DNA of 64,000 nucleotides from Prochilodus magdalenae (taxonomy: Eukaryota; Chordata; Actinopteri; Characiformes; Prochilodontidae): NCBI GenBank assembly GCA_024036415.1, contig JAMWET010007194.1, positions 1 through 64,000 of the forward strand, read 5' to 3'. Below, in pieces: positions 1 to 63,535 of this stretch. The stretch's first letter is position 1, and each line of letters starts with the position of its first letter. A model generated the notes under the pieces. That model saw nothing but the letters and a program-made list of their open reading frames with translations. It made no database searches and was not told the origin of the DNA. Made by a program: the position numbers and the translations under genes.

Positions 1-23
1 GCTGGCAAAGTAGGGAAGCAAGA

Positions 24-106
24 TGCCCATGAAACTACCCCAAAGAGAAGCACTTATTCTGTGTATTAAATAATCTATGCTCCACTTCGTGGTGGTCTCA
101 AAAGGC
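24..106 (-). ncRNA. mir430c: pre-miR-430c hairpin, unit 1
   Basis: The mature 3p arm at 35-56 reads, on the minus strand, U followed by AAGUGCUUCUCUUUGGGGUA and G. This matches zebrafish miR-430c as I recall it. The star arm at 74-95 pairs over 22 nt with a few mismatches and G-U pairs, and a lower stem continues between 24-34 and 96-106. The seed is AAGUGC. miR-430 directs deadenylation and decay of maternal mRNAs in the early fish embryo. It is the last hairpin of its unit in transcription order. Precursor ends are estimated by hand pairing. Confidence 0.95.
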
Positions 107-154
107 AATCACACTTGTGTAAACTGAGAAGCAAAACAAGCATCACATCTCTGC

Positions 155-233
155 TCAAATATATACCCCAACTTAATAGCACTTTCTTGCACACTGAAAG
201 AGAAAGATGCCAAAGTTGAAGCAGATTTCTGAC
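155..233 (-). ncRNA. mir430b: pre-miR-430b-like hairpin, unit 1
   Basis: The mature 3p arm at 164-185 begins AAAGUGCUAUUAAGUUGGGG, with seed AAGUGC at positions 2-7. It resembles zebrafish miR-430b but has UUAAG where I recall UCAAG. The star arm at 203-224 pairs almost without interruption, with one small bulge opposite the centre of the mature strand. Third hairpin of the unit in transcription order. Confidence 0.93.
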
Positions 234-317
234 AGATTCTTCACTATTCTTCTGTGACACATTGTGAAAAATGTCTTTTTTTTCAGCAACAATGATAAAA
301 TCCTTGATGGTAAAACA

Positions 318-394
318 CTCCAAGTGTTGCCCCAACTTGTTAGCACTTACAATGCAATTTAGGTAAGAGAGCTACAGTTAGGGTCACATTCAGA
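318..394 (-). ncRNA. mir430: pre-miR-430 hairpin (GCUAACAAG variant), unit 1
   Basis: The mature 3p arm at 328-349 begins UAAGUGCUAACAAGUUGGGG. The star arm at 362-383 pairs with it apart from small bulges. This member differs from the others in the AACAAG centre, but it keeps the AAGUGC seed and the UUGGGG 3' block of the family. Second hairpin of the unit in transcription order. Confidence 0.92.
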
Positions 395-451
395 GCTACA
401 CTTAAAATATCCAAGGAGAAATAGTAATCAAAACTTCTCTGGTTGCTTTTG

Positions 452-530
452 TCACTTAAAACTACCCCAACAAATAGCACTTACCAAATAGAAATGAAAG
501 GTCAGAGCCATTGTTAGAGTATCAATTGTG
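452..530 (-). ncRNA. mir430: pre-miR-430 hairpin (GCUAUUUG variant), unit 1
   Basis: The mature 3p arm at 462-483 begins UAAGUGCUAUUUGUUGGGGU. The star arm at 501-520 (minus strand ACUCUAACAAUGGCUCUGAC) pairs along the whole mature strand with one bulged U. That star resembles the 5p arms of the related miR-302/427 hairpins. It is the first hairpin of the unit in transcription order, next to the spacer that should hold the promoter. Confidence 0.93.
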
Positions 531-958
531 ACTGGGATTCCAGCAATCTTTCAAATATTCCATTCAAAGGTAAAGTTAAACTTTTTCATTGTTCTATACC
601 TCATATGCTGTTGAGACAGAAGATAGTCCTGGCAGAGATGATCATACTGAAGTATATGATCTGAGCTGCCCTGATTTTAAATGTCCAGAAACCTTTACAT
701 ATATTGAGGTCATTCACAGCTCCTCCTCCTTCAGAAGCCATTGTGACATCATAAATGATAATTGTCCCAACCATTTCTTCTGAATGTGTGAAAGTTTATC
801 ACTTAGACAGAGAAGTTCTATGCTAATTACTAACTATGTCTTCTTCTGAGCTGGAATGTTGAAATTATTTTACTTTGGTTCACATATTAAAGTATTGTAA
901 AATAGTTGGTTGTATTGTACAGCAGCTACTCCTGCTGGCTACACATGATATATTCTGA
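531..958 (-). promoter_or_regulatory. Repeat-unit spacer, probable site of a per-unit miR-430 promoter
   Basis: This ~430-bp spacer lies upstream of the four hairpins in minus-strand orientation and recurs in every full unit. It holds a perfect POU/octamer-type ATGCTAAT at 820-827, next to a TAATTAC homeodomain-type site, and a CATTGTT Sox-type site near 586-592. TATA-like minus-strand stretches lie at 944-955 and 884-893. Pou5f3, SoxB1 and Nanog are the known activators of zygotic miR-430 in zebrafish. No start site can be fixed from sequence. A 64-codon plus-strand ORF at 589-783 is not accepted as a gene. Confidence 0.45.
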
Positions 959-981
959 GCTGGCAAAGTAGGGAAGCAAGA

Positions 982-1064
982 TGCCCATGAAACTACCCCA
1001 AAGAGAAGCACTTATTCTGTGTATTAAATAATCTATGCTCCACTTCGTGGTGGTCTCAAAAGGC
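982..1064 (-). ncRNA. mir430c: pre-miR-430c hairpin, unit 2
   Basis: Mature arm at 993-1014, identical to unit 1. Confidence 0.94.
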
Positions 1065-1112
1065 AATCACACTTGTGTAAACTGAGAAGCAAAACAAGCA
1101 TCACATCTCTGC

Positions 1113-1191
1113 TCAAATATATACCCCAACTTAATAGCACTTTCTTGCACACTGAAAGAGAAAGATGCCAAAGTTGAAGCAGATTTCTGAC
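1113..1191 (-). ncRNA. mir430b: pre-miR-430b-like hairpin, unit 2
   Basis: Mature arm at 1122-1143, identical to unit 1; star arm unchanged. Confidence 0.92.
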
Positions 1192-1274
1192 AGATTCTTC
1201 ACTATTCTTCTGTGACACATTGTGAAAAATGTCTTTTTTTCAGCAACAATGATAAAATCCTTGATGGTAAAACA

Positions 1275-1351
1275 CTCCAAGTGTTGCCCCAACTTGTTAG
1301 CACTTACAATGCAATTTAGGTAAGAGAGCTACAGTTAGGGTCACATTCAGA
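1275..1351 (-). ncRNA. mir430: pre-miR-430 (GCUAACAAG variant), unit 2
   Basis: Mature arm at 1285-1306, identical to unit 1. Confidence 0.91.
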
Positions 1352-1408
1352 GCTACACTTAAAATATCCAAGGAGAAATAGTAATCAAAACTTCTCTGGT
1401 TGCTTTTG

Positions 1409-1487
1409 TCACTTAAAACTACCCCAACAAATAGCACTTACCAAATAGAAATGAAAGGTCAGAGCCATTGTTAGAGTATCAATTGTG
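1409..1487 (-). ncRNA. mir430: pre-miR-430 (GCUAUUUG variant), unit 2
   Basis: Mature arm at 1419-1440, identical to unit 1. The spacer to the right is the most divergent in the array, with several changes between 1530 and 1725. Confidence 0.92.
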
Positions 1488-1937
1488 ACTGGGATTCCAG
1501 CAATCTTTCAAATATTCCATTCAAAGGTAAAGTTAGACTTTTCAGTGTTCCATACCTCATATGCTGTTGAGACAGAAGATAGTCCTGGCAGAGACGATCA
1601 TACTGAAGTATATGATCTGTGCTGCCCTGATTTTAAATGTCCAGAAACCTTTACATATATCGAGGTCATTCACAGCTCCTCCTCCTTCAGAAGACATTGT
1701 GACATCATAAATGATAATTGTTCCAACCATTTCTTCTGAATGTGTGAAAGTTTATCACTTAGACAGAGAAGTTCTATGCTAATTACTAACTATGCCTTCT
1801 TCTGAGCTGGAATGTTGAAATTATTTTACTTTGGTTCACATATTAAGGTATTGTAAAATAGTTGGTTGTATTGTACAGCAGCTACTCCTGCTGGCTACAC
1901 ATGATATATTCTGAGCTGGCAAAGTAGGGAAGCAAGA

Positions 1938-2020
1938 TGCCCATGAAACTACCCCAAAGAGAAGCACTTATTCTGTGTATTAAATAATCTATGCTCCACT
2001 TCGTGGTGGTCTCAAAAGGC
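1938..2020 (-). ncRNA. mir430c: pre-miR-430c hairpin, unit 3
   Basis: Mature arm at 1949-1970, identical to unit 1. Confidence 0.94.
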
Positions 2021-2068
2021 AATCACACTTGTGTAAACTGAGAAGCAAAACAAGCATCACATCTCTGC

Positions 2069-2146
2069 TCAAATATATACCCCAACTTAATAGCACTTTC
2101 TTGCACAGTGACAGAGAAAGATGCCACGTTGAAGCAGATTTCTGAC
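2069..2146 (-). ncRNA. mir430b: pre-miR-430b-like hairpin with variant star arm, unit 3
   Basis: The mature arm at 2078-2099 is unchanged. The loop and star side differs from all other units: CAGTGACAG replaces CACTGAAAG, and the star has CCACGTTG instead of CCAAAGTTG, one base shorter. The stem should still form, with altered central pairing. Confidence 0.9.
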
Positions 2147-2229
2147 AGATTTTTCACTATTCTTCTGTGACACATTGTAAAAAATGTCTTTTTTTCAGCA
2201 ACAATGATAAAATCCTTGATGGTAAAACA

Positions 2230-2306
2230 CTCCAAGTGTTGCCCCAACTTGTTAGCACTTACAATGCAATTTAGGTAAGAGAGCTACAGTTAGGGTCACA
2301 TTCAGA
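2230..2306 (-). ncRNA. mir430: pre-miR-430 (GCUAACAAG variant), unit 3
   Basis: Mature arm at 2240-2261, identical to unit 1. Confidence 0.91.
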
Positions 2307-2363
2307 GCTACACTTAAAATATCCAAGGAGAAATAGTAATCAAAACTTCTCTGGTTGCTTTTG

Positions 2364-2442
2364 TCACTTAAAACTACCCCAACAAATAGCACTTACCAAA
2401 TAGAAATGAAAGGTCAGAGCCATTGTTAGAGTATCAATTGTG
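2364..2442 (-). ncRNA. mir430: pre-miR-430 (GCUAUUUG variant), unit 3
   Basis: Mature arm at 2374-2395, identical to unit 1. Confidence 0.92.
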
Positions 2443-2893
2443 ACTGGGATTCCAGCAATCTTTCAAATATTCCATTCAAAGGTAAAGTTAAACTTTTTCA
2501 TTGTTCTATACCTCATATGCTGTTGAGACAGAAGATAGTCCTGGCAGAGATGATCATACTGAAGTATATGATCTGAGCTGCCCTGATTTTAAATGTCCAG
2601 AAACCTTTACATATATTGAGGTCATTCACAGCTCCTCCTCCTTCAGAAGCCATTGTGACATCATAAATGATAATTGTTCCAACCATTTCTTCTGAATGTG
2701 TGAAAGTTTATCACTTAGACAGAGAAGTTCTATGCTAATTACTAACTATGCCTTCTTCTGAGCTGGAATGTTGAAATTATTTTACTTTGGTTCACATATT
2801 AAGGTATTGTAAAATAGTTGGTTGTATTGTACAGCAGCTACTCCTGCTGGCTACACATGATATATTCTGAGCTGGCAAAGTAGGGAAGCAAGA

Positions 2894-2976
2894 TGCCCAT
2901 GAAACTACCCCAAAGAGAAGCACTTATTCTGTGTATTAAATAATCTATGCTCCACTTCGTGGTGGTCTCAAAAGGC
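2894..2976 (-). ncRNA. mir430c: pre-miR-430c hairpin, unit 4
   Basis: Mature arm at 2905-2926, identical to unit 1. Confidence 0.94.
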
Positions 2977-3024
2977 AATCACACTTGTGTAAACTGAGAA
3001 GCAAAACAAGCATCACATCTCTGC

Positions 3025-3103
3025 TCAAATATATACCCCAACTTAATAGCACTTTCTTGCACACTGAAAGAGAAAGATGCCAAAGTTGAAGCAGATTTCT
3101 GAC
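3025..3103 (-). ncRNA. mir430b: pre-miR-430b-like hairpin, unit 4
   Basis: Mature arm at 3034-3055, identical to unit 1. Confidence 0.92.
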
Positions 3104-3186
3104 AGATTCTTCACTATTCTTCTGTGACACATTGTGAAAAATGTCTTTTTTTCAGCAACAATGATAAAATCCTTGATGGTAAAACA

Positions 3187-3263
3187 CTCCAAGTGTTGCC
3201 CCAACTTGTTAGCACTTACAATGCAATTTAGGTAAGAGAGCTACAGTTAGGGTCACATTCAGA
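3187..3263 (-). ncRNA. mir430: pre-miR-430 (GCUAACAAG variant), unit 4
   Basis: Mature arm at 3197-3218, identical to unit 1. Confidence 0.91.
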
Positions 3264-3320
3264 GCTACACTTAAAATATCCAAGGAGAAATAGTAATCAA
3301 AACTTCTCTGGTTGCTTTTG

Positions 3321-3399
3321 TCACTTAAAACTACCCCAACAAATAGCACTTACCAAATAGAAATGAAAGGTCAGAGCCATTGTTAGAGTATCAATTGTG
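3321..3399 (-). ncRNA. mir430: pre-miR-430 (GCUAUUUG variant), unit 4
   Basis: Mature arm at 3331-3352, identical to unit 1. Confidence 0.92.
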
Positions 3400-3850
3400 A
3401 CTGGGATTCCAGCAATCTTTCAAATATTCCATTCAAAGGTAAAGTTAAACTTTTTCATTGTTCTATACCTCATATGCTGTTGAGACAGAAGATAGTCCTG
3501 GCAGAGATGATCATACTGAAGTATATGATCTGAGCTGCCCTGATTTTAAATGTCCAGAAACCTTTACATATATTGAGGTCATTCACAGCTCCTCCTCCTT
3601 CAGAAGCCATTGTGACATCATAAATGATAATTGTTCCAACCATTTCTTCTGAATGTGTGAAAGTTTATCACTTAGACAGAGAAGTTCTATGCTAATTACT
3701 AACTATGTTCTCTTCTGAGCTGGAATGTTGAAATAATTTTACTTTGGTTCACATATTAAAGTATTGTAAAATAGTTGGTTGTATTGTACAGCAGCTACTC
3801 CTGCTGGCTACACATGATATATTCTGAGCTGGCAAAGTAGGGAAGCAAGA

Positions 3851-3933
3851 TGCCCATGAAACTACCCCAAAGAGAAGCACTTATTCTGTGTATTAAATAA
3901 TCTATGCTCCACTTCGTGGTGGTCTCAAAAGGC
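3851..3933 (-). ncRNA. mir430c: pre-miR-430c hairpin, unit 5
   Basis: Mature arm at 3862-3883, identical to unit 1. Confidence 0.94.
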
Positions 3934-3981
3934 AATCACACTTGTGTAAACTGAGAAGCAAAACAAGCATCACATCTCTGC

Positions 3982-4060
3982 TCAAATATATACCCCAACT
4001 TAATAGCACTTTCTTGCACACTGAAAGAGAAAGATGCCAAAGTTGAAGCAGATTTCTGAC
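3982..4060 (-). ncRNA. mir430b: pre-miR-430b-like hairpin, unit 5
   Basis: Mature arm at 3991-4012, identical to unit 1. Confidence 0.92.
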
Positions 4061-4143
4061 AGATTCTTCACTATTCTTCTGTGACACATTGTGAAAAATG
4101 TCTTTTTTTCAGCAACAATGATAAAATCCTTGATGGTAAAACA

Positions 4144-4220
4144 CTCCAAGTGTTGCCCCAACTTGTTAGCACTTACAATGCAATTTAGGTAAGAGAGCTA
4201 CAGTTAGGGTCACATTCAGA
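4144..4220 (-). ncRNA. mir430: pre-miR-430 (GCUAACAAG variant), unit 5
   Basis: Mature arm at 4154-4175, identical to unit 1. Confidence 0.91.
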
Positions 4221-4277
4221 GCTACACTTAAAATATCCAAGGAGAAATAGTAATCAAAACTTCTCTGGTTGCTTTTG

Positions 4278-4356
4278 TCACTTAAAACTACCCCAACAAA
4301 TAGCACTTACCAAATAGAAATGAAAGGTCAGAGCCATTGTTAGAGTATCAATTGTG
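4278..4356 (-). ncRNA. mir430: pre-miR-430 (GCUAUUUG variant), unit 5
   Basis: Mature arm at 4288-4309, identical to unit 1. Confidence 0.92.
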
Positions 4357-4807
4357 ACTGGGATTCCAGCAATCTTTCAAATATTCCATTCAAAGGTAAA
4401 GTTAAACTTTTTCATTGTTCTATACCTCATATGCTGTTGAGACAGAAGATAGTCCTGGCAGAGATGATCATACTGAAGTATATGATCTGTGCTGCCCTGA
4501 TTTTAAATGTCCAGAAACCTTAACATATATTGAGGTCATTCACAGCTCCTCCTCCTTCAGAAGACATTGTGACATCATAAATGATAATTGTCCCAACCAT
4601 TTCTTCTGAATGTGTGAAAGTTTATCACTTAGACAGAGAAGTTCTATGCTAATTACTAACTATGTCTTCTTCTGAGCTGGAATGTTGAAATTATTTTACT
4701 TTGGTTCACATATTAAAGTATTGTAAAATAGTTGGTTGTATTGTACAGCAGCTACTCCTGCTGGCTACACATGATATATTCTGAGCTGGCAAAGTAGGGA
4801 AGCAAGA

Positions 4808-4890
4808 TGCCCATGAAACTACCCCAAAGAGAAGCACTTATTCTGTGTATTAAATAATCTATGCTCCACTTCGTGGTGGTCTCAAAAGGC
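4808..4890 (-). ncRNA. mir430c: pre-miR-430c hairpin, unit 6
   Basis: Mature arm at 4819-4840, identical to unit 1. Confidence 0.94.
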
Positions 4891-4938
4891 AATCACACTT
4901 GTGTAAACTGAGAAGCAAAACAAGCATCACATCTCTGC

Positions 4939-5017
4939 TCAAATATATACCCCAACTTAATAGCACTTTCTTGCACACTGAAAGAGAAAGATGCCAAAGT
5001 TGAAGCAGATTTCTGAC
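4939..5017 (-). ncRNA. mir430b: pre-miR-430b-like hairpin, unit 6
   Basis: Mature arm at 4948-4969, identical to unit 1. Confidence 0.92.
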
Positions 5018-5101
5018 AGATTCTTCACTATTCTTCTGTGACACATTGTGAAAAATGTCTTTTTTTTCAGCAACAATGATAAAATCCTTGATGGTAAAAC
5101 A

Positions 5102-5178
5102 CTCCAAGTGTTGCCCCAACTTGTTAGCACTTACAATGCAATTTAGGTAAGAGAGCTACAGTTAGGGTCACATTCAGA
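5102..5178 (-). ncRNA. mir430: pre-miR-430 (GCUAACAAG variant), unit 6
   Basis: Mature arm at 5112-5133, identical to unit 1. Confidence 0.91.
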
Positions 5179-5235
5179 GCTACACTTAAAATATCCAAGG
5201 AGAAATAGTAATCAAAACTTCTCTGGTTGCTTTTG

Positions 5236-5314
5236 TCACTTAAAACTACCCCAACAAATAGCACTTACCAAATAGAAATGAAAGGTCAGAGCCATTGTTA
5301 GAGTATCAATTGTG
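5236..5314 (-). ncRNA. mir430: pre-miR-430 (GCUAUUUG variant), unit 6
   Basis: Mature arm at 5246-5267, identical to unit 1. Confidence 0.92.
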
Positions 5315-5765
5315 ACTGGGATTCCAGCAATCTTTCAAATATTCCATTCAAAGGTAAAGTTAAACTTTTTCATTGTTCTATACCTCATATGCTGTTGAGA
5401 CAGAAGATAGTCCTGGCAGAGATGATCATACTGAAGTATATGATCTGAGCTGCCCTGATTTTAAATGTCCAGAAACCTTAACATATATTGAGGTCATTCA
5501 CAGCTCCTCCTCCTTCAGAAGCCATTGTGACATCATAAATGATAATTGTTCCAACCATTTCTTCTGAATGTGTGAAAGTTTATCACTTAGACAGAGAAGT
5601 TCTATGCTAATTACTAACTATGTCTTCTTCTGAGCTGGAATGTTGAAATTATTTTACTTTGGTTCACATATTAAAGTATTGTAAAATAGTTGGTTGTATT
5701 GTACAGCAGCTACTCCTGCTGGCTACACATGATATATTCTGAGCTGGCAAAGTAGGGAAGCAAGA

Positions 5766-5848
5766 TGCCCATGAAACTACCCCAAAGAGAAGCACTTATT
5801 CTGTGTATTAAATAATCTATGCTCCACTTCGTGGTGGTCTCAAAAGGC
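5766..5848 (-). ncRNA. mir430c: pre-miR-430c hairpin, unit 7
   Basis: Mature arm at 5777-5798, identical to unit 1. Confidence 0.94.
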
Positions 5849-5896
5849 AATCACACTTGTGTAAACTGAGAAGCAAAACAAGCATCACATCTCTGC

Positions 5897-5975
5897 TCAA
5901 ATATATACCCCAACTTAATAGCACTTTCTTGCACACTGAAAGAGAAAGATGCCAAAGTTGAAGCAGATTTCTGAC
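5897..5975 (-). ncRNA. mir430b: pre-miR-430b-like hairpin, unit 7
   Basis: Mature arm at 5906-5927, identical to unit 1. Confidence 0.92.
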
Positions 5976-6059
5976 AGATTCTTCACTATTCTTCTGTGAC
6001 ACATTGTGAAAAATGTTTTTTTTTTCAGCAACAATGATAAAATCCTTGATGGTAAAACA

Positions 6060-6136
6060 CTCCAAGTGTTGCCCCAACTTGTTAGCACTTACAATGCAAT
6101 TTAGGTAAGAGAGCTACAGTTAGGGTCACATTCAGA
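6060..6136 (-). ncRNA. mir430: pre-miR-430 (GCUAACAAG variant), unit 7
   Basis: Mature arm at 6070-6091, identical to unit 1. Confidence 0.91.
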
Positions 6137-6193
6137 GCTACACTTAAAATATCCAAGGAGAAATAGTAATCAAAACTTCTCTGGTTGCTTTTG

Positions 6194-6272
6194 TCACTTA
6201 AAACTACCCCAACAAATAGCACTTACCAAATAGAAATGAAAGGTCAGAGCCATTGTTAGAGTATCAATTGTG
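6194..6272 (-). ncRNA. mir430: pre-miR-430 (GCUAUUUG variant), unit 7
   Basis: Mature arm at 6204-6225, identical to unit 1. Confidence 0.92.
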
Positions 6273-6723
6273 ACTGGGATTCCAGCAATCTTTCAAATAT
6301 TCCATTCAAAGGTAAAGTTAAACTTTTTCATTGTTCTATACCTCATATGCTGTTGAGACAGAAGATAGTCCTGGCAGAGATGATCATACTGAAGTATATG
6401 ATCTGAGCTGCCCTGATTTTAAATGTCCAGAAACCTTTACATATATTGAGGTCATTCACAGCTCCTCCTCCTTCAGAAGCCATTGTGACATCATAAATGA
6501 TAATTGTTCCAACCATTTCTTCTGAATGTGTGAAAGTTTATCACTTAGAAAGAGAAGTTCTATGCTAATTACTAACTATGCCTTCTTCTGAGCTGGAATG
6601 TTGAAATTATTTTACTTTGGTTCACATATTAAGGTATTGTAAAATAGTTGGTTGTATTGTACAGCAGCTACTCCTGCTGGCTACACATGATATATTCTGA
6701 GCTGGCAAAGTAGGGAAGCAAGA

Positions 6724-6806
6724 TGCCCATGAAACTACCCCAAAGAGAAGCACTTATTCTGTGTATTAAATAATCTATGCTCCACTTCGTGGTGGTCTCA
6801 AAAGGC
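6724..6806 (-). ncRNA. mir430c: pre-miR-430c hairpin, unit 8
   Basis: Mature arm at 6735-6756, identical to unit 1. Confidence 0.94.
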
Positions 6807-6854
6807 AATCACACTTGTGTAAACTGAGAAGCAAAACAAGCATCACATCTCTGC

Positions 6855-6933
6855 TCAAATATATACCCCAACTTAATAGCACTTTCTTGCACACTGAAAG
6901 AGAAAGATGCCAAAGTTGAAGCAGATTTCTGAC
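6855..6933 (-). ncRNA. mir430b: pre-miR-430b-like hairpin, unit 8
   Basis: Mature arm at 6864-6885, identical to unit 1. The neighbouring T-run near 6974 has lost the C that the other units carry. Confidence 0.92.
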
Positions 6934-7016
6934 AGATTCTTCACTATTCTTCTGTGACACATTGTGAAAAATGTTTTTTTTTTAGCAACAATGATAAAAT
7001 CCTTGATGGTAAAACA

Positions 7017-7093
7017 CTCCAAGTGTTGCCCCAACTTGTTAGCACTTACAATGCAATTTAGGTAAGAGAGCTACAGTTAGGGTCACATTCAGA
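7017..7093 (-). ncRNA. mir430: pre-miR-430 (GCUAACAAG variant), unit 8
   Basis: Mature arm at 7027-7048, identical to unit 1. Confidence 0.91.
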
Positions 7094-7150
7094 GCTACAC
7101 TTAAAATATCCAAGGAGAAATAGTAATCAAAACTTCTCTGGTTGCTTTTG

Positions 7151-7229
7151 TCACTTAAAACTACCCCAACAAATAGCACTTACCAAATAGAAATGAAAGG
7201 TCAGAGCCATTGTTAGAGTATCAATTGTG
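7151..7229 (-). ncRNA. mir430: pre-miR-430 (GCUAUUUG variant), unit 8
   Basis: Mature arm at 7161-7182, identical to unit 1. Confidence 0.92.
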
Positions 7230-7680
7230 ACTGGGATTCCAGCAATCTTTCAAATATTCCATTCAAAGGTAAAGTTAAACTTTTTCATTGTTCTATACCT
7301 CATATGCTGTTGAGACAGAAGATAGTCCTGGCAGAGATGATCATACTGAAGTATATGATCTGAGCTGCCCTGATTTTAAATGTCCAGAAACCTTAACATA
7401 TATTGAGGTCATTCACAGCTCCTCCTCCTTCAGAAGCCATTGTGACATCATAAATGATAATTGTTCCAACCATTTCTTCTGAATGTGTGAAAGTTTATCA
7501 CTTAGACAGAGAAGTTCTATGCTAATTACTAACTATGTCTTCTTCTGAGCTGGAATGTTGAAATTATTTTACTTTGGTTCACATATTAAAGTATTGTAAA
7601 ATAGTTGGTTGTATTGTACAGCAGCTACTCCTGCTGGCTACACATGATATATTCTGAGCTGGCAAAGTAGGGAAGCAAGA

Positions 7681-7763
7681 TGCCCATGAAACTACCCCAA
7701 AGAGAAGCACTTATTCTGTGTATTAAATAATCTATGCTCCACTTCGTGGTGGTCTCAAAAGGC
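7681..7763 (-). ncRNA. mir430c: pre-miR-430c hairpin, unit 9
   Basis: Mature arm at 7692-7713, identical to unit 1. Confidence 0.94.
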
Positions 7764-7811
7764 AATCACACTTGTGTAAACTGAGAAGCAAAACAAGCAT
7801 CACATCTCTGC

Positions 7812-7890
7812 TCAAATATATACCCCAACTTAATAGCACTTTCTTGCACACTGAAAGAGAAAGATGCCAAAGTTGAAGCAGATTTCTGAC
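7812..7890 (-). ncRNA. mir430b: pre-miR-430b-like hairpin, unit 9
   Basis: Mature arm at 7821-7842, identical to unit 1. Confidence 0.92.
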
Positions 7891-7973
7891 AGATTCTTCA
7901 CTATTCTTCTGTGACACATTGTGAAAAATGTCTTTTTTTCAGCAACAATGATAAAATCCTTGATGGTAAAAGA

Positions 7974-8050
7974 CTCCAAGTGTTGCCCCAACTTGTTAGC
8001 ACTTACAATGCAATTTAGGTAAGAGAGCTACAGTTAGGGTCACATTCAGA
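7974..8050 (-). ncRNA. mir430: pre-miR-430 (GCUAACAAG variant), unit 9
   Basis: Mature arm at 7984-8005, identical to unit 1. A private base change (AAAGACTCC for AAACACTCC) lies just outside the mature sequence. Confidence 0.91.
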
Positions 8051-8107
8051 GCTACACTTAAAATATCCAAGGAGAAATAGTAATCAAAACTTCTCTGGTT
8101 GCTTTTG

Positions 8108-8186
8108 TCACTTAAAACTACCCCAACAAATAGCACTTACCAAATAGAAATGAAAGGTCAGAGCCATTGTTAGAGTATCAATTGTG
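8108..8186 (-). ncRNA. mir430: pre-miR-430 (GCUAUUUG variant), unit 9
   Basis: Mature arm at 8118-8139, identical to unit 1. Confidence 0.92.
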
Positions 8187-8637
8187 ACTGGGATTCCAGC
8201 AATCTTTCAAATATTCCATTCAAAGGTAAAGTTAAACTTTTTCATTGTTCTATACCTCATATGCTGTTGAGACAGAAGATAGTCCTGGCAGAGATGATCA
8301 TACTGAAGTATATGATCTGAGCTGCCCTGATTTTAAATGTCCAGAAACCTTTACATATATTGAGGTCATTCACAGCTCCTCCTCCTTCAGAAGACATTGT
8401 GACATCATAAATGATAATTGTTCCAACCATTTCTTCTGAATGTGTGAAAGTTTATCACTTAGACAGAGAAGTTCTATGCTAATTACTAACTATGTCTTCT
8501 TCTGAGCTGGAATGTTGAAATTATTTTACTTTGGTTCACATATTAAAGTATTGTAAAATAGTTGGTTGTATTGTACAGCAGCTACTCCTGCTGGCTACAC
8601 ATGATATATTCTGAGCTGGCAAAGTAGGGAAGCAAGA

Positions 8638-8720
8638 TGCCCATGAAACTACCCCAAAGAGAAGCACTTATTCTGTGTATTAAATAATCTATGCTCCACT
8701 TCGTGGTGGTCTCAAAAGGC
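8638..8720 (-). ncRNA. mir430c: pre-miR-430c hairpin, unit 10
   Basis: Mature arm at 8649-8670, identical to unit 1. Confidence 0.94.
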
Positions 8721-8768
8721 AATCACACTTGTGTAAACTGAGAAGCAAAACAAGCATCACATCTCTGC

Positions 8769-8847
8769 TCAAATATATACCCCAACTTAATAGCACTTTC
8801 TTGCACACTGAAAGAGAAAGATGCCAAAGTTGAAGCAGATTTCTGAC
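8769..8847 (-). ncRNA. mir430b: pre-miR-430b-like hairpin, unit 10
   Basis: Mature arm at 8778-8799, identical to unit 1. Confidence 0.92.
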
Positions 8848-8930
8848 AGATTCTTCACTATTCTTCTGTGACACATTGTGAAAAATGTCTTTTTTTCAGC
8901 AACAATGATAAAATCCTTGATGGTAAAACA

Positions 8931-9007
8931 CTCCAAGTGTTGCCCCAACTTGTTAGCACTTACAATGCAATTTAGGTAAGAGAGCTACAGTTAGGGTCAC
9001 ATTCAGA
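8931..9007 (-). ncRNA. mir430: pre-miR-430 (GCUAACAAG variant), unit 10
   Basis: Mature arm at 8941-8962, identical to unit 1. Confidence 0.91.
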
Positions 9008-9064
9008 GCTACACTTAAAATATCCAAGGAGAAATAGTAATCAAAACTTCTCTGGTTGCTTTTG

Positions 9065-9143
9065 TCACTTAAAACTACCCCAACAAATAGCACTTACCAA
9101 ATAGAAATGAAAGGTCAGAGCCATTGTTAGAGTATCAATTGTG
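9065..9143 (-). ncRNA. mir430: pre-miR-430 (GCUAUUUG variant), unit 10
   Basis: Mature arm at 9075-9096, identical to unit 1. Upstream-most complete four-hairpin block in transcription order. Its spacer has private changes (9238, 9455, 9510, 9531). Confidence 0.92.
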
Positions 9144-9594
9144 ACTGGGATTCCAGCAATCTTTCAAATATTCCATTCAAAGGTAAAGTTAAACTTTTTC
9201 ATTGTTCTATACCTCATATGCTGTTGAGACAGAAGATACTCCTGGCAGAGATGATCATACTGAAGTATATGATCTGAGCTGCCCTGATTTTAAATGTCCA
9301 GAAACCTTAACATATATTGAGGTCATTCACAGCTCCTCCTCCTTCAGAAGCCATTGTGACATCATAAATGATAATTGTCCCAACCATTTCTTCTGAATGT
9401 GTGAAAGTTTATCACTTAGACAGAGAAGTTCTATGCTAATTACTAACTATGTCTTTTTCTGAGCTGGAATGTTGAAATAATTTTACTTTGGTTCACATAT
9501 TAAAGTATTATAAAATAGTTGGTTGTATTGAACAGCAGCTACTCCTGCTGGCTACACATGATATATTCTGAGCTGGCAAAGTAGGGAAGCAAGA

Positions 9595-9664
9595 TGCCCA
9601 TGAAACTACCCCAAAGAGAAGCACTTATTCTGTGTATTAAATAATCTATGCTCCACTTCGTGGT
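9595..9664 (-). pseudogene. mir430c: Truncated eleventh miR-430c hairpin at the array edge
   Basis: The mature arm at 9606-9627 and nearly all of the star arm are intact. The repeat ends at 9664 inside the base of the star, so the last two star bases and the 5' half of the lower stem are missing. No repeat spacer lies upstream. It would need another promoter, and a shortened basal stem should impair Drosha cleavage. It marks the breakpoint of the amplification. Confidence 0.75.
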
Positions 9665-10053
9665 AAAAACTGATCTTCATCTGGAAAAAAATATGAATTT
9701 GTTAAAAAGAATTATTTACAAAACAACATTATTGAACTTAAGAATGCAACACAGTCAAATTAGTAGTTCTTCTAAAAACCCCTTTCCAATTTCACTCTTC
9801 AGACCCTGCTAAGAAGGAGCATGGCAATTAGTTGATGAGCTAAATAGGAAGCTTTAGCCGGGAATAGGAATAGACATGTGGTGGAGATCCCATAAACATG
9901 GAACTCTTGATCTCGACTTTAGGAGGCACTGCATGCACCAGCCGCTAGATGTTGCCAAAGCAACGTAGAAAAGTCCCCAGCATCCCGAGTGCGACCACCG
10001 TTGCAACGTGGCAAAAGTTCCTTTACAGTTTAGTCAACGTATATTTCTAGGTA
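9665..10053. other. Unique flank between the miR-430 array and the tRNA gene
   Basis: No gene is seen here. The left part is AT-rich. The part from about 9840 is more GC-rich, with several CpGs, an X-box-like palindrome at 9951-9964 and a related GTTGCAACGTGGCA stretch near 10000. In minus-strand sense this is the 5' flank of the array, so regulatory sites for the cluster could lie here. Confidence 0.5.
9951..9964. promoter_or_regulatory. RFX X-box-like palindrome
   Basis: GTTGCCAAAGCAAC is an inverted repeat with a short spacer and fits the RFX-family consensus (GTNRCC, 0-3 nt, RGYAAC). It lies 288 bp from the last miR-430 repeat and 90 bp from the tRNA gene. Binding is inferred from the motif only. 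Confidence 0.4.
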
Positions 10054-10125
10054 GGCTCGTTGGTCTAGGGGTATGATTCTCGCTTAGGGTGCGAGAGGTC
10101 CCGGGTTCAAATCCCGGACGAGCCC
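10054..10125 (+). tRNA. tRNA-Pro (AGG)
   Basis: This is a 72-nt cloverleaf. The acceptor arm GGCTCGT pairs with ACGAGCC. The anticodon stem CTCGC/GCGAG holds the loop TTAGGGT, giving anticodon AGG. The A box (TGGTCTAGGGG) and B box (GGTTCAAATCC) are intact, so Pol III should transcribe it. A TTTTT run just downstream (about 10129-10134) can serve as terminator. There is no intron and no encoded CCA, as expected for a nuclear eukaryotic tRNA. Its direction is opposite to the miR-430 array and grb10. Confidence 0.95.
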
Positions 10126-13100
10126 ACTGTTTTTGCTATGCAAGTGCCATATTAAAAAGCTTTGAACAGTCTCTCAACCTGACGTAGGGAGGTCCACAGT
10201 CATCTGTTTTTATCTGGATGGTACTTCTCTTCCCACTTAGCGATCACCTGATTTAATACACAGTGAATTTTCCCACATGAGCGGGTCATAAACACAAAAA
10301 GTCCACACAAACAAGTTCAGCTTAATATACTCTTTATAAAAAGACATTTGAGACATACAAATGAAAACAGATGATATAGTTATAATATGCACACTGGTAC
10401 AAATCACTGAGAGGGAGTATGCAAAATACACACCGCATGTGTAATAATCCAATCTTCATTTTGTGTGGGGAGCCCAACCCTTTTACATGGTTATAGATAA
10501 GATAGCATAGATACAGTGTTAGATCTAGACCTTAAGCTTCACGTACTTAGAAAAAGAAAAAAAAACAAAACAAAAAAAAGATATTGCTGCTGAAGCTAAC
10601 TGTGTTTGCATTAGATACGGCTGCACAAGAGTTGCATGTTAAGAGAGACACCTTGCCCCATCCTACAGACTAGTGCACCAAGAACATGTTGCATATTATA
10701 CTTGACTTAGTTAATGTACTTTCCCTCTCTTTCCTGCTGTTGGTTATGTTAAGCTCCTGTTGTAGCCACCCGCCCAAGCACATCTGTCTAGCACTGCTGT
10801 ATTTTCAAAAGAGATTGGGATTACGGAAGCTTGACTAGAGGATGCTCTACACAGACCATGCCTTACATGCATGACAAGCTACTATACTTCCTGTACACTT
10901 CTTGAAATGGACAGAGTAGGAGAGGTGCTCAAAAAGAATAAAATGTTAAGGTGCAACTCAAAACAGCCAATGCCAAGATGCTGCTAGTTAAGATGTGAAA
11001 TAAGCCCCTATGTCCATCCCAGAGTGGGTTCTAAACATATTTCTTAGAAAAAATGTAGGCCCCCACACAGACATACATTAAGCCTAGGCATGGCCTGTAT
11101 TACACTACTGGATAAAGAAATAGAGATGTTTGTTTGGTGTAGCCCCTGTATCTGAAAACCAGGACAACAGATTCCTTGAGTAAATATATTAAAAGGGAGA
11201 TCAAGTCCCATCACAGAGAATCTCCCAATTGTTGCATCCATTTTGTGCTCTCTCTCGTGCATTAGATATGTGTACTTCGGCATCAGCAGTTTTAACAGTC
11301 AGCTGTCGGAGTTTAGCATATCGAACTGTGAGAGGTTGTCATAGCTTAGTCTTGCTGGGCCCAGTGTAGGGAGGGTGTCAGAATTGACTTAAAACATGGA
11401 CGAGGCAGTCACAGTGCTGCGGGGGGTTTGCACTCACACGGTAGCGCACCTATAAGCTGAGGCTTGTGCCGCTAACCTTCTCGAATGAGGCGAGGTGCGG
11501 GAGCAAATCTCCTAAGTGCATGATGTCACAGCCCTAGAGGATTTGCAGTCACACCAAGGAGTCCTGACACTGCGAATGCTCCACCTCTCCAGAGTGAGTA
11601 TGTGTGTGTGTGTCTGTGGGTGTGCAGATGTTCTTTTGCTCCTGCTCTGCCACTGTTCCGATGTTGCAGTGGCTCAAGAACTGCACAGTGATGTAAAGCC
11701 ATTCTTAATTATAGTTATTTCTAAATGTTTTCCAACTCCAGTCCTGTAGAAACCCCAGCACTGCACCAGTTGTTCCTCAAACCTAAATTGTAGTCTGGCT
11801 TCGAGTGCTACTCGATCGAGTGCTACTAGGCCCTAACATAGATGAAAAAAATACAAAACAAAGAAGGAAAAAAAGAAGAAAAAAAAACCCAAGAATATAT
11901 TGCTGGTTGCGGTGTTATAGTTTATGTATCAGTAACACATTAATGTGATGAATTACCACCTCTAATTCTTTTGAATGCATTTTGAATAATCTACACACAG
12001 CTGGTATGACTCCAAGACTGCAGTTCTCCAACTTTTAAAGGGCACCAAAATCCACAGATGGTGTTCCTTAAAAAACAAGTTTCCTTAGTTTCATTGGATG
12101 GTACTTGTTGGGAGACCTGTGGATAAGCAGCAAATTTTAAAAAAAGCAACAACAAATTGGAAAGCTGCAGTTCCACTCCAAACAAGACGCAGCATAGTAG
12201 TGCATTCGTGAGAGGTCTGTAAAAGGCTTGAAACTGTCAAATGTGTAGGGTGTATGATACATATGACATACGCCCCCTTTTTGGAATATGCAGCCTGCAT
12301 TGCTTTCACTTAACACTGGTAATAAAAATCAGAAATTGCATACGCTCACATGCCGAAAATAAAATTTGTGAAGGCAACAAATACATTCTGATAACCCTCA
12401 TTTAGTCCAATGGTATAGCTCTGCAAAATGCACTGACTTACACATTTGAAAAAATCTGTCTTTGGGGTCAAATTTGAGCAAAAATAAATATGATTACTAT
12501 GGGCTTATGTGTACTATGTGTATAATTGAGATTACTTTGTTAAATCCTTAATCACTAGATACTGAAATTAATCTCAGTCAACTGAATTCTTTAGTGCTTG
12601 TTTTTTTATGTTCGGAAGCTTAATCTTTTTTAAAGCCACAAGCCACAAGTACATTTCACCAGCAAAGGCCTTGTGGACTGGTGGGTTTCCAGGACTGTAG
12701 TTGGAAAACACTGATTATCCAGGATCCTACAGGAATTAAATAAAGACTGCTACATATTTAGGGGTTAAATCATTCATCTCAGTGATTGTGCTCTGGGCAG
12801 CCAACCTCGAGAAGTTGAGCAAAGGTCAAGTTTTTTTTTGTGGCCACATATGGCCTGGGTCAAGTTTCTATGGCTCCCTATAGGCTATCCTTAAACAATA
12901 TTGCACTTTTAATTCAAAGTAAACCATTTTGTCCCCCTGACATCACTGATTTGAAGTGTTTTAACAGAAACTCCATTGAGCAGTTGCTGCCTTCAGACTG
13001 AAAGGACTGATCAGAGCCAAGTTACTGCAGCCTTTGCCCAATGCCCTCAGATCTCCATTCTCTCTTAAGGCAAAGAGAACTGGGCAAAGAACTACTTGCA

Positions 13101-13798
13101 CTCAGCACAAAGAAACAGATGAGACGTGTCAGTTTGCTGATCCATAATTTTGCTAACGTGTCATCAGGTATAACCTTGGCAATAGAAAGCTCTCTCTCAT
13201 GGCTCTGTGGATGTCCTGTGCTGTAATCCAATCAACATGCAAGGATTCCCCGTAGAGAGCTTACCAAGGGACATGGAGAAACAGAGTGGACGGCAAGAGT
13301 GCAGGGACGAACAAAGAGGGTCATTTTAACACTTAAAAAGTGGGGCACGTTTTCATCTCGAGAGTGCAAAATGTTTAGGTATGAAAACATCAACACCACA
13401 ACTACAAACCAAATATAATCAAGTAACTTTACAAGACTTTTTTTTGCAACTGTAGAAGGGTGTCCTGGATAGTCCTTAATAATGGCATCTCTGATGTCTT
13501 TGATCGCACAAAATATTGAGGTGACTGACACTGTCTCGGAAAAACGAGGACCAAAGTGGCAACGTCACAGAAACTGGATAGAAACCGGAAGAAGAGTGGC
13601 TTCCAGAAACTGTGCTTGTCAGAGGACCATTCCCAACATGATAGAAACAGAAAGCGTCCTCCAGGTCTGAGGTATGAGTCAGCTTATCATGGATGTGGGA
13701 CAGGGCCAAAAAATATCCAGTTTTTTAGCCATGTGTATATAGAGATGTGTTTGTGTGTAGCGTGAGTTAATTTGTTGGATCATGAGTGGGTGAGGGGG
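10126..13798 (-). other. Probable grb10 3' UTR and downstream flank
   Basis: No coding sequence is supported here. This is the DNA downstream of the grb10 stop codon in minus-strand sense. A minus-strand ATTAAA (plus-strand 10251-10256) is a possible poly(A) signal; an untranslated region of about 3.5 kb would be long but possible, and a nearer cryptic signal cannot be excluded. Minus-strand GCACTT hexamers, which match the miR-430 seed, occur at 10142-10147 and 11514-11519; the second is followed by A, as in a 7mer-A1 site. Confidence 0.4.
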
Positions 13799-57834
<44,036 letters not shown>

Positions 57835-58039
57835 CTGCAGTGGGGGAAAATGGGAGACAGTAAGCACAAACAACTCATTTCTTTCATCACCTGGCAGAGC
57901 TTCACCTGTTTAGAGAATCAAGGACGGTGGATTAGAGCAAGTACCAAAGGGATAATACAAGGTGAAATGAACTGACCATCAGTTCATAGTGATGCGCATT
58001 CAAGCGGATATGAACCCATTAGAGGAAACTTAGACAACT

Positions 58040-58660
58040 AATACACATGGCACCTGATATGCATGCTAATTCTGAACACCCTCGTATTGGTCTATCTTAC
58101 AGTAGGAAATCAAGCTTAATGGGAACTTTGAGCCAACTTTCAGCTATAACAGCTTTAGATCTTCTGGGAAGACTTTCCACAAGGTTTAGAATGTGTTTAT
58201 GGGAATTTATAACCATTCTTCCAAAAGCACATTTGGGAGGTCCGACAATGATGGTAGGACGAGAAGATCTGGCTTACAGTCTCCGCTCTAATTCATCCCA
58301 AAGGTTTTCTGTTGGGTTGAGGTCAGGACTCTGTGCAGGCCAGTCATGTTCTTCCACACCAAACTCGCTAATCCATGTCTTTATAGACCTCGCTTTTTGC
58401 ACTGGTGCACAGTCATGTTGGAACAGGAAGAGGCCATCCCCAAACTGTTTCCACAAAGTTGGGAGCATGAAATTGTCCATAATCTCTTGGTCTGCTGAAA
58501 CATTATGATTTCCTTTCACTGGAACTAAGGGGGCGAGCTGAACTCCTGAAATACAAAGCCACACCATAATCTCCCCTTCAGCAAACTTTACACTTGGCAC
58601 AATACAGTCAGACAATGAGTTGGATGGGTGAGTGAATACTTTTGGCTATGTAGTGTATAT
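58040..58660 (-). pseudogene. Tc1-like transposon fragment with partial transposase
   Basis: The minus-strand frame 58274-58615 includes FAEGEIMVWLCISGVQLAPL, FLFQHDCAPVQKARSIKTW and DWPAQSPDLNPTENLWDELE, the DDE half of a Tc1-like transposase. The HD and the NPTE glutamate are kept. It continues, degraded, to about 58040 on the plus-strand left side. The HTH domain and one inverted repeat are missing, so it is inactive. Confidence 0.88.
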
Positions 58661-62693: not shown

Positions 62694-63535
62694 CTGTTAG
62701 GTCCAGAAATATTTGGGCAGTAACACAAGTATTGGCATTTTAGATGTTTACCAAAACATAGTCAAAATACAGTTCTATACTCAACATGTGCTTGAAGTGC
62801 ACACTCTCGGAACACCCACGGAAGACAACAGTGGTGGATAATCGCAGAATCCTTTCCATGGTGAAAAAAAAAAAAAAACTGCAGGAAGTAGATGCATCAG
62901 TATTCCAGTCTACCATAAGGAGAAGACTTCATGACAGCAAATACAGAGGGTTCACCACAAGGCGGAAATCAGTAATCAGCCTCAAAAACAGAAAGGTCAG
63001 ATTAGACTTTGCCAAAAAACATCTAATGAAGCCAGTCCAGTTCTGGAACAGCATTCTTTGGACAGATTAAACTAAGATCAGCCTGTACCAGAATGATGGG
63101 AAGAAGAAAGTATGGAGAAGGCTTGGAATGGCTCATGATCCAAAGCACACCACATCCTCTGTAAAACATGGTTGTAGCTGTGTGATAGCAGGGGCAAGCA
63201 AACCAGGAGCTTTTTAAGGCAAAGAAGTGGAATATTCTGCAATGGCCAAGTCAATCACCAGATCTAAACATGATCGAGCATGCATTTCACTTGCTTAAGA
63301 CAACTTAAAGCAGAAAGACCCACAAACAAGCAGCAACTTCAGTGTAGGCCTGGGGCAGCATCAGAAAGGAGGAAACTCAGAGTTTGGTGATATCTATGAG
63401 TTCTAAACTTCAGGCAGTCATTGCCTGCAAAAATTCTCAACAAAGAACTAAAAATAAACATTTAATTTACGGTAAAGTTAATTTGCCCAATTACTTTTAA
63501 GCCCCTTAATGAGGAGGTTTTGTAGAAAAATCACT

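Follow-up and report, generated by a model that had tools for sequence, protein, structure and literature searches.

One end of a probable miR-430 locus in a bony fish, with a partly decayed second array and a single relic elsewhere in the genome

The stretch of Prochilodus magdalenae DNA analysed here (64,000 nt, in the following the window) represents bases 1-64000 of contig C7132 in a genome of 1.18 Gb and 7790 contigs. Positions 1-9664 form a head-to-tail array of one unit, with ten complete copies of 956-958 bp and one partial copy of 93 bp, which is very probably one end of a tandem miR-430 locus of a bony fish. The miR-430 copies are clustered in tandem on a single strand (minus) throughout the array. 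Because contig C7132 ends at the left edge of the window, the array is cut by the assembly. The partial copy at 9572-9664 matches the corresponding stretch of the unit at 100%, so that the array end at 9664 given in the preliminary description is exact; the unit sequence stops there and shows no continuation beyond. Each full unit harbours four hairpins, called a, GCUAACAAG (b-like), b and c; the names a, b and c are our own labels, assumed from the resemblance to the zebrafish forms and to a printed morpholino target. Listed with their hairpins in transcript order, the units are:

1..958, minus strand: unit 1; a 526-457, GCUAACAAG 390-322, b 228-158, c 99-30
959..1914, minus strand: unit 2; a 1483-1414, GCUAACAAG 1347-1279, b 1186-1116, c 1057-988
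1915..2870, minus strand: unit 3; a 2438-2369, GCUAACAAG 2302-2234, variant b 2141-2072, c 2013-1944
2871..3827, minus strand: unit 4; a 3395-3326, GCUAACAAG 3259-3191, b 3098-3028, c 2969-2900
3828..4784, minus strand: unit 5; a 4352-4283, GCUAACAAG 4216-4148, b 4055-3985, c 3926-3857
4785..5742, minus strand: unit 6; a 5310-5241, GCUAACAAG 5174-5106, b 5012-4942, c 4883-4814
5743..6700, minus strand: unit 7; a 6268-6199, GCUAACAAG 6132-6064, b 5970-5900, c 5841-5772
6701..7657, minus strand: unit 8; a 7225-7156, GCUAACAAG 7089-7021, b 6928-6858, c 6799-6730
7658..8614, minus strand: unit 9; a 8182-8113, GCUAACAAG 8046-7978, b 7885-7815, c 7756-7687
8615..9571, minus strand: unit 10; a 9139-9070, GCUAACAAG 9003-8935, b 8842-8772, c 8713-8644
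9572..9664, minus strand: partial unit at the upstream (transcript 5') edge; c hairpin only (9670-9601), with altered stem base

The preliminary description had proposed ten units of ~957 bp in the same order, four minus-strand miR-430 hairpins per full unit in the order given above, and an array running off the left edge, and in these points it was right (periods 956-958). Its count of 40 intact hairpins holds for the ten full units, but the total is 41, since the partial copy carries an extra c hairpin.

Scanning the array with cmscan at permissive settings against the Rfam family RF01413 (gathering cutoff 47.3 bits) gave 41 matches, all of them on the minus strand. The type-a hairpins (GCUAUUUG) reach 65.6 bits in ten out of ten cases and are the only ones reported at the curated cutoff. 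The 31 matches below it (27.8-40.8 bits, E-values of 7e-5 to 0.12) include ten of type b, nine at 40.8 bits and one at 33.5, ten GCUAACAAG hairpins at 31.9 bits and 11 of type c, ten at 30.5 bits and one at 27.8. All 41 hairpins carry the seed AAGUGCU in the 3p arm. On the plus strand of the window the seed complement AGCACTT occurs 46 times, 41 of them inside the array, and AAGTGCT occurs twice, both times outside. Compared by eye, the b 3p stretch and the zebrafish anti-miR-430 morpholino target printed in PMC12255298 differ at 2 of 25 bases.

In the hairpin formed by each of the four types the seed arm is the 3p arm. Folding one copy per type resulted in minimum free energies of -29.1 (c), -24.8 (b), -28.6 (GCUAACAAG) and -26.9 (a) and in z-scores of -5.0, -3.3, -4.0 and -4.5, respectively. 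Only 0 (c), 3 (b), 1 (GCUAACAAG) and 1 (a) of 1000 dinucleotide shuffles were equally stable, which confirms the earlier claim that all four fold. The b hairpin of unit 3, with its variant loop and star arm, still folds at -26.2, and the c hairpin of the partial copy (9601-9670), where part of the stem base is gone, at -21.8. A further hairpin lies in the spacer at unit positions ~608-687, is present in all ten units and folds on both strands (sense z -3.2, 5/1000 shuffles as stable; other strand z -3.4, 2/500). It contains variable columns among the ten units, has no match in Rfam and looks too short for a typical precursor, and we have left it uncounted.

The units differ from each other in pairs at 2-17 of about 957 positions, and thus are ten distinct copies. 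In total 30 columns vary, none of the 92 in the four 3p arms, four of the 284 in the hairpins and 26 of the 673 outside; the four in the hairpins are those of the loop and star arm of b in unit 3. The most variable part is the spacer upstream of hairpin a, with 20 of 381 columns compared to 2 of 300 in 277-576. The longest stretch free of variation measures 263 nt, a length reached in 52 of 20000 random placements, and the two longest together measure 497 nt, which none of 20000 placements reached. These stretches comprise the c, GCUAACAAG and a hairpins entirely and about half of b. This pattern is consistent with homogenised copies and selection on the hairpins, but alone it is not strong proof.

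Searches of the same genome with window positions 1-276 and 277-576 found three contigs, and the counts given here are lower bounds. Contig C4420 harbours a second miR-430 array, which extends in the same orientation as in C7132 from 454277 to the last contig base at 463586. It consists of five full units of 1586-1623 bp, of which v1, v3 and v5 are 98.2-99.7% alike, while v2 and v4 are 92.4-93.8% identical to the rest. Each unit is a compound of positions 301-957 of the C7132 unit, a 38-185 piece (once 38-170) and a 1-346 piece, at 86-92% identity. Because positions 186-300 are missing between the first two pieces, the b star arm is lost. The array retains 27 seed words, each of which was folded together with its flank. 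The a hairpin is sound in five out of five cases (-19.2 to -20.6), and the c hairpin of the 1-346 piece in five out of six (-23.4 to -23.7), the sixth being without the c seed. The GCUAACAAG hairpin is sound once (-21.5), weakened once (-11.5) and in three of five cases present in a broken form (-11.8). Five b seeds remain, all in the piece ending before the star arm, and a second c form, found in six places, folds at -17.8 or -13.7. Rfam reports a above the cutoff in five out of five units; below the cutoff are five matches of c and one of GCUAACAAG, and for b and the second c form no Rfam match was found at E up to 1. Among the a 3p arms four of five differ at one base, and one also carries an additional base. 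One c form shows the same 23-nt 3p arm in five of six places.

The flank of the C4420 array contains an HCN-channel exon and an exon with an FYRC domain. The latter is presumably KMT2-like, and its relatives, 33 proteins, are all without a name; neither exon could be linked to grb10.

The third contig carries a single relic of the unit (C6946:207601-208100, plus strand; 67% identity over 507 nt), in which the places of a, b and c align in the C7132 order. The b seed is kept, the a seed is lost and the c seed is changed, and of GCUAACAAG, between a and b, no more than the 5p side can be recognised. This one relic suggests that the four-hairpin order may be older than the divergence of the relic and that the compound 1.6-kb unit may be derived. 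A UnaL2 LINE (long interspersed nuclear element) 3' element lies ~0.9 kb from the relic. Outside this genome, an exact 20-base pattern of the array had no match in viral contigs and window 9572-17571 had none in phages; an exact 18-base pattern had four matches in prokaryote contigs (bacteria and archaea), which we regard as chance.

Three results weigh against the identification as a miR-430 locus under selection. First, the preliminary description had named a search with the Rfam mir-430 models as a check, and this search succeeds for type a only: 10/41 hairpins are over the RF01413 gathering cutoff and 31/41 under it. The cutoff certifies one hairpin type in four; the other three rest on seed, fold, order and conservation. 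Second, the hairpins have fewer variable columns than the sequence outside at p = 0.065 only (Fisher test). Third, when the two arrays are compared, conservation in the mature arms of a and GCUAACAAG does not exceed that of the spacer: over 301-957 the C4420 units differ from the C7132 consensus at 47 of 515 spacer positions, at 5 of 46 positions in these two arms and at 6 of 97 elsewhere in the hairpins. The last result is mainly due to the decay of GCUAACAAG in C4420.

In fishes miR-430 is produced at zygotic genome activation and promotes the clearance of maternal messenger RNAs (PMC10417697; also PMC6370886, PMC12255298 and PMC11021188). Given the observed array with its single strand, its seeds, its folds and its invariant mature arms, the same course of transcription, processing and targeting would be expected here by analogy with the known family. 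A minus-strand RNA would carry repeated quartets of a, the b-like GCUAACAAG, b and c, and Drosha and Dicer would cut each hairpin to a 3p microRNA with the common seed. At zygotic genome activation these microRNAs would bind maternal messenger RNAs and lead to their deadenylation and decay, and the many copies would allow a fast, high dose within short early cell cycles. Concerted evolution would keep the copies alike, while selection would hold the hairpins.

The following neighbouring features lie outside the array:

13802..57874, minus strand: grb10-like gene (context), coding end ~4.1 kb upstream of the array
57584-57874, minus strand: putative grb10-like exon, no Pfam match
in 28507-28833, minus strand: RA exon, Pfam RA_2
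in 17765-18061, minus strand: PH-end exon, no Pfam match; GRB10 (1.1e-9) over GRB14 (4.1e-7)
in 14310-14408, minus strand: SH2 piece, Pfam SH2
in 13802-13960, minus strand: C-terminal SH2 piece, no Pfam match; GRB10 (2.7e-21) over GRB7 (3.8e-19)
10054..10125, plus strand: transfer RNA gene, tRNA-Pro (AGG), between the grb10-like gene and the array

The best solved match of the RA exon is GRB10 (E 9.4e-25), followed by GRB14 (1.4e-16) and GRB7 (1.5e-12). Among its 58 relatives six bear a species name (Danionella, Xenoophorus, Goodea, Coryphaenoides, Liparis and Oncorhynchus), all of them bony fishes, which points to a bony fish as the host. The exon at 57584-57874 is presumably part of this gene, an assignment made by eye. 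Three Tc1/mariner-type transposase pieces (Pfam HTH, DDE_3) lie at 18456-18842, 58274-58645 and 62762-63070.

It is quite conceivable, although we would not call it probable, that the ~430-nt spacer preceding hairpin a contains a promoter in each unit, which would make a promoter-dense locus nucleating a transcription body, as reported for zebrafish; a transcription body at the present array, as suggested in the preliminary description, is putative and drawn by analogy. The zebrafish locus is described as having a promoter every two or three triplets (PMC10417697) and several start sites by cap analysis of gene expression (PMC6370886), and Nanog and Sox19b are enriched in its mir430 bodies (PMC11021188). 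SOX-type words are in excess in the unit: ACAAT[GA] occurs eight times compared to a shuffle mean of 1.9 (1/2000 shuffles as many; single units 6-8), a number that none of 267 overlapping flank stretches reaches, and ACAATG alone six times per 957-bp unit compared to 1.0 in shuffles (0/2000 as many). In the C4420 array ACAATG is found at 3.3/kb against 0.65/kb in the C4420 flank, but this is not independent because the arrays are homologous. Moreover, SOX was one of seven motifs counted, four of which were retested, and of seven SOX-like words tried only ACAAT (17), ACAATG (0) and ACAAWG (35) stood out, each with fewer than 40 of 2000 shuffles reaching its count, whereas AACAAT (88), WWCAAWG (238), AACAAW (339) and ACAATA (501) are unremarkable. 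The octamer, Nanog and TATA patterns show no excess over shuffles, and counting the seven motifs identified no promoter in the unit. In addition, variation within the unit is highest in the candidate spacer, and the zebrafish promoter was not found outside Danio (PMC10417697). The word excess is post hoc and depends on the definition, and is a lead only.

Alternatively, and in our view rather unlikely, one long polycistronic transcript could start at one promoter upstream of the array, or arise by read-through from the grb10-like gene, which lies on the strand of the array with its coding end ~4.1 kb away. The outermost copy at 9572-9664 has kept its c 3p arm unchanged though it is without a unit spacer upstream, but it may just be young. 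Between the gene and the array lie 4 kb and the opposite-strand tRNA gene, and zebrafish miR-430 uses several internal promoters (PMC6370886).

Both arrays have the same orientation, the C4420 array leaving its contig at the right end and the C7132 array at the left, and the searches with window 1-276 and 277-576 revealed no third contig edge with array. A single locus interrupted by a gap would produce this picture. With two loci, as in Salmo, two further edges should appear, although such edges are often lost in assembly. The differing units of the two arrays speak against one locus, and both readings stand. A more elaborate version, which we consider doubtful, would make C7132 and C4420 the ends of one assembly-broken locus. 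An intact four-hairpin half would lie near grb10, where transcription would start, and a 1.6-kb compound half downstream, with b and GCUAACAAG dying and a and c persisting; the copies along one transcript would then grade from maintained to decaying, and the spacers, rich in SOX sites, would act as promoters in every unit. As a separate matter, the flanks of C4420 (59 kb) and C7132 (94 kb) share ten matching pieces of 71-87% identity. We rejected the flanks as copies of each other: the matches are repeat-like, as eight of the ten fall on one short C4420 stretch.

That the array is an inactive satellite, with working miR-430 copies elsewhere, is very unlikely. Homogenisation across the array alone could yield identity without function, but in C7132 the seeds are kept in 41/41 copies and the folds hold, whereas in C4420 the b star arm is gone and GCUAACAAG is sound in 1/5 units, and the C6946 relic is without the a seed; among the three places found, C7132 is preserved best. 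An assembly artefact in copy number is extremely unlikely, as the contig does end inside the array but the ten units are all distinct, with a minimum of two differences, and missing copies are the likelier assembly error.

The identification as miR-430 is sound, but it is not novel, as arrays of this kind are known from many fishes (PMC10417697). In Table 1 of that study 17 species have 1-4 hairpins in units of 251-1481 bp, and its Table 2 gives 28 cichlid clusters with units from 215 bp upward; the present unit with four hairpins per 957 bp is within this range. The value of ~4.2 hairpins/kb in the preliminary description stands, yet as a sign of unusual density it does not, since 2/17 and 7/28 of these rows are denser. 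From the same tables Gadus morhua has 8.0/kb, Micropterus salmoides 6.7/kb and zebrafish 2.7/kb. The suggestion that the four-hairpin unit is simpler than that of zebrafish fails as well: the zebrafish array (chr4, a-c-b triplets) shares family, seed and tandem organisation with the present one but has three hairpins per 1129 bp (PMC10417697). Further differences are the sense order, a-b-b-c here by our labels, and the flanking grb10-like gene, unlike the zebrafish locus.

Four-hairpin units are also found in Acipenser, Amia, Atractosteus and two Salmo species (PMC10417697). Salmo salar and S. trutta have four per 1028- or 1066-bp unit, given as a-b-a-c and located on two chromosomes (PMC10417697), so that one label differs (a versus b-like) in a comparison made by label. 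Amia calva also has four hairpins including two b forms (b-b-a-c; PMC10417697), but its unit is 1481 bp long and its hairpins follow another cyclic order, unless one of the two arrays is read on the opposite strand. In a literature search pairing mir-430 and grb10, judged by the listing, no paper on such a locus was found; a swamp eel genome paper merely cites miR-430 in its accessible part.

New are the assembly break in the array, the second, partly decayed array on C4420 and the single relic on C6946. The array itself adds one more fish with a clean four-hairpin miR-430 unit and leaves the existing knowledge of miR-430 unchanged. Loss of b is the commonest loss of a miR-430 variant among the fishes of PMC10417697, and here one unit is present within one genome in three states, as an intact array, as a decaying array of compound units and as an old relic in single copy. 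How miR-430 variants are born, homogenised and lost can thereby be studied directly.

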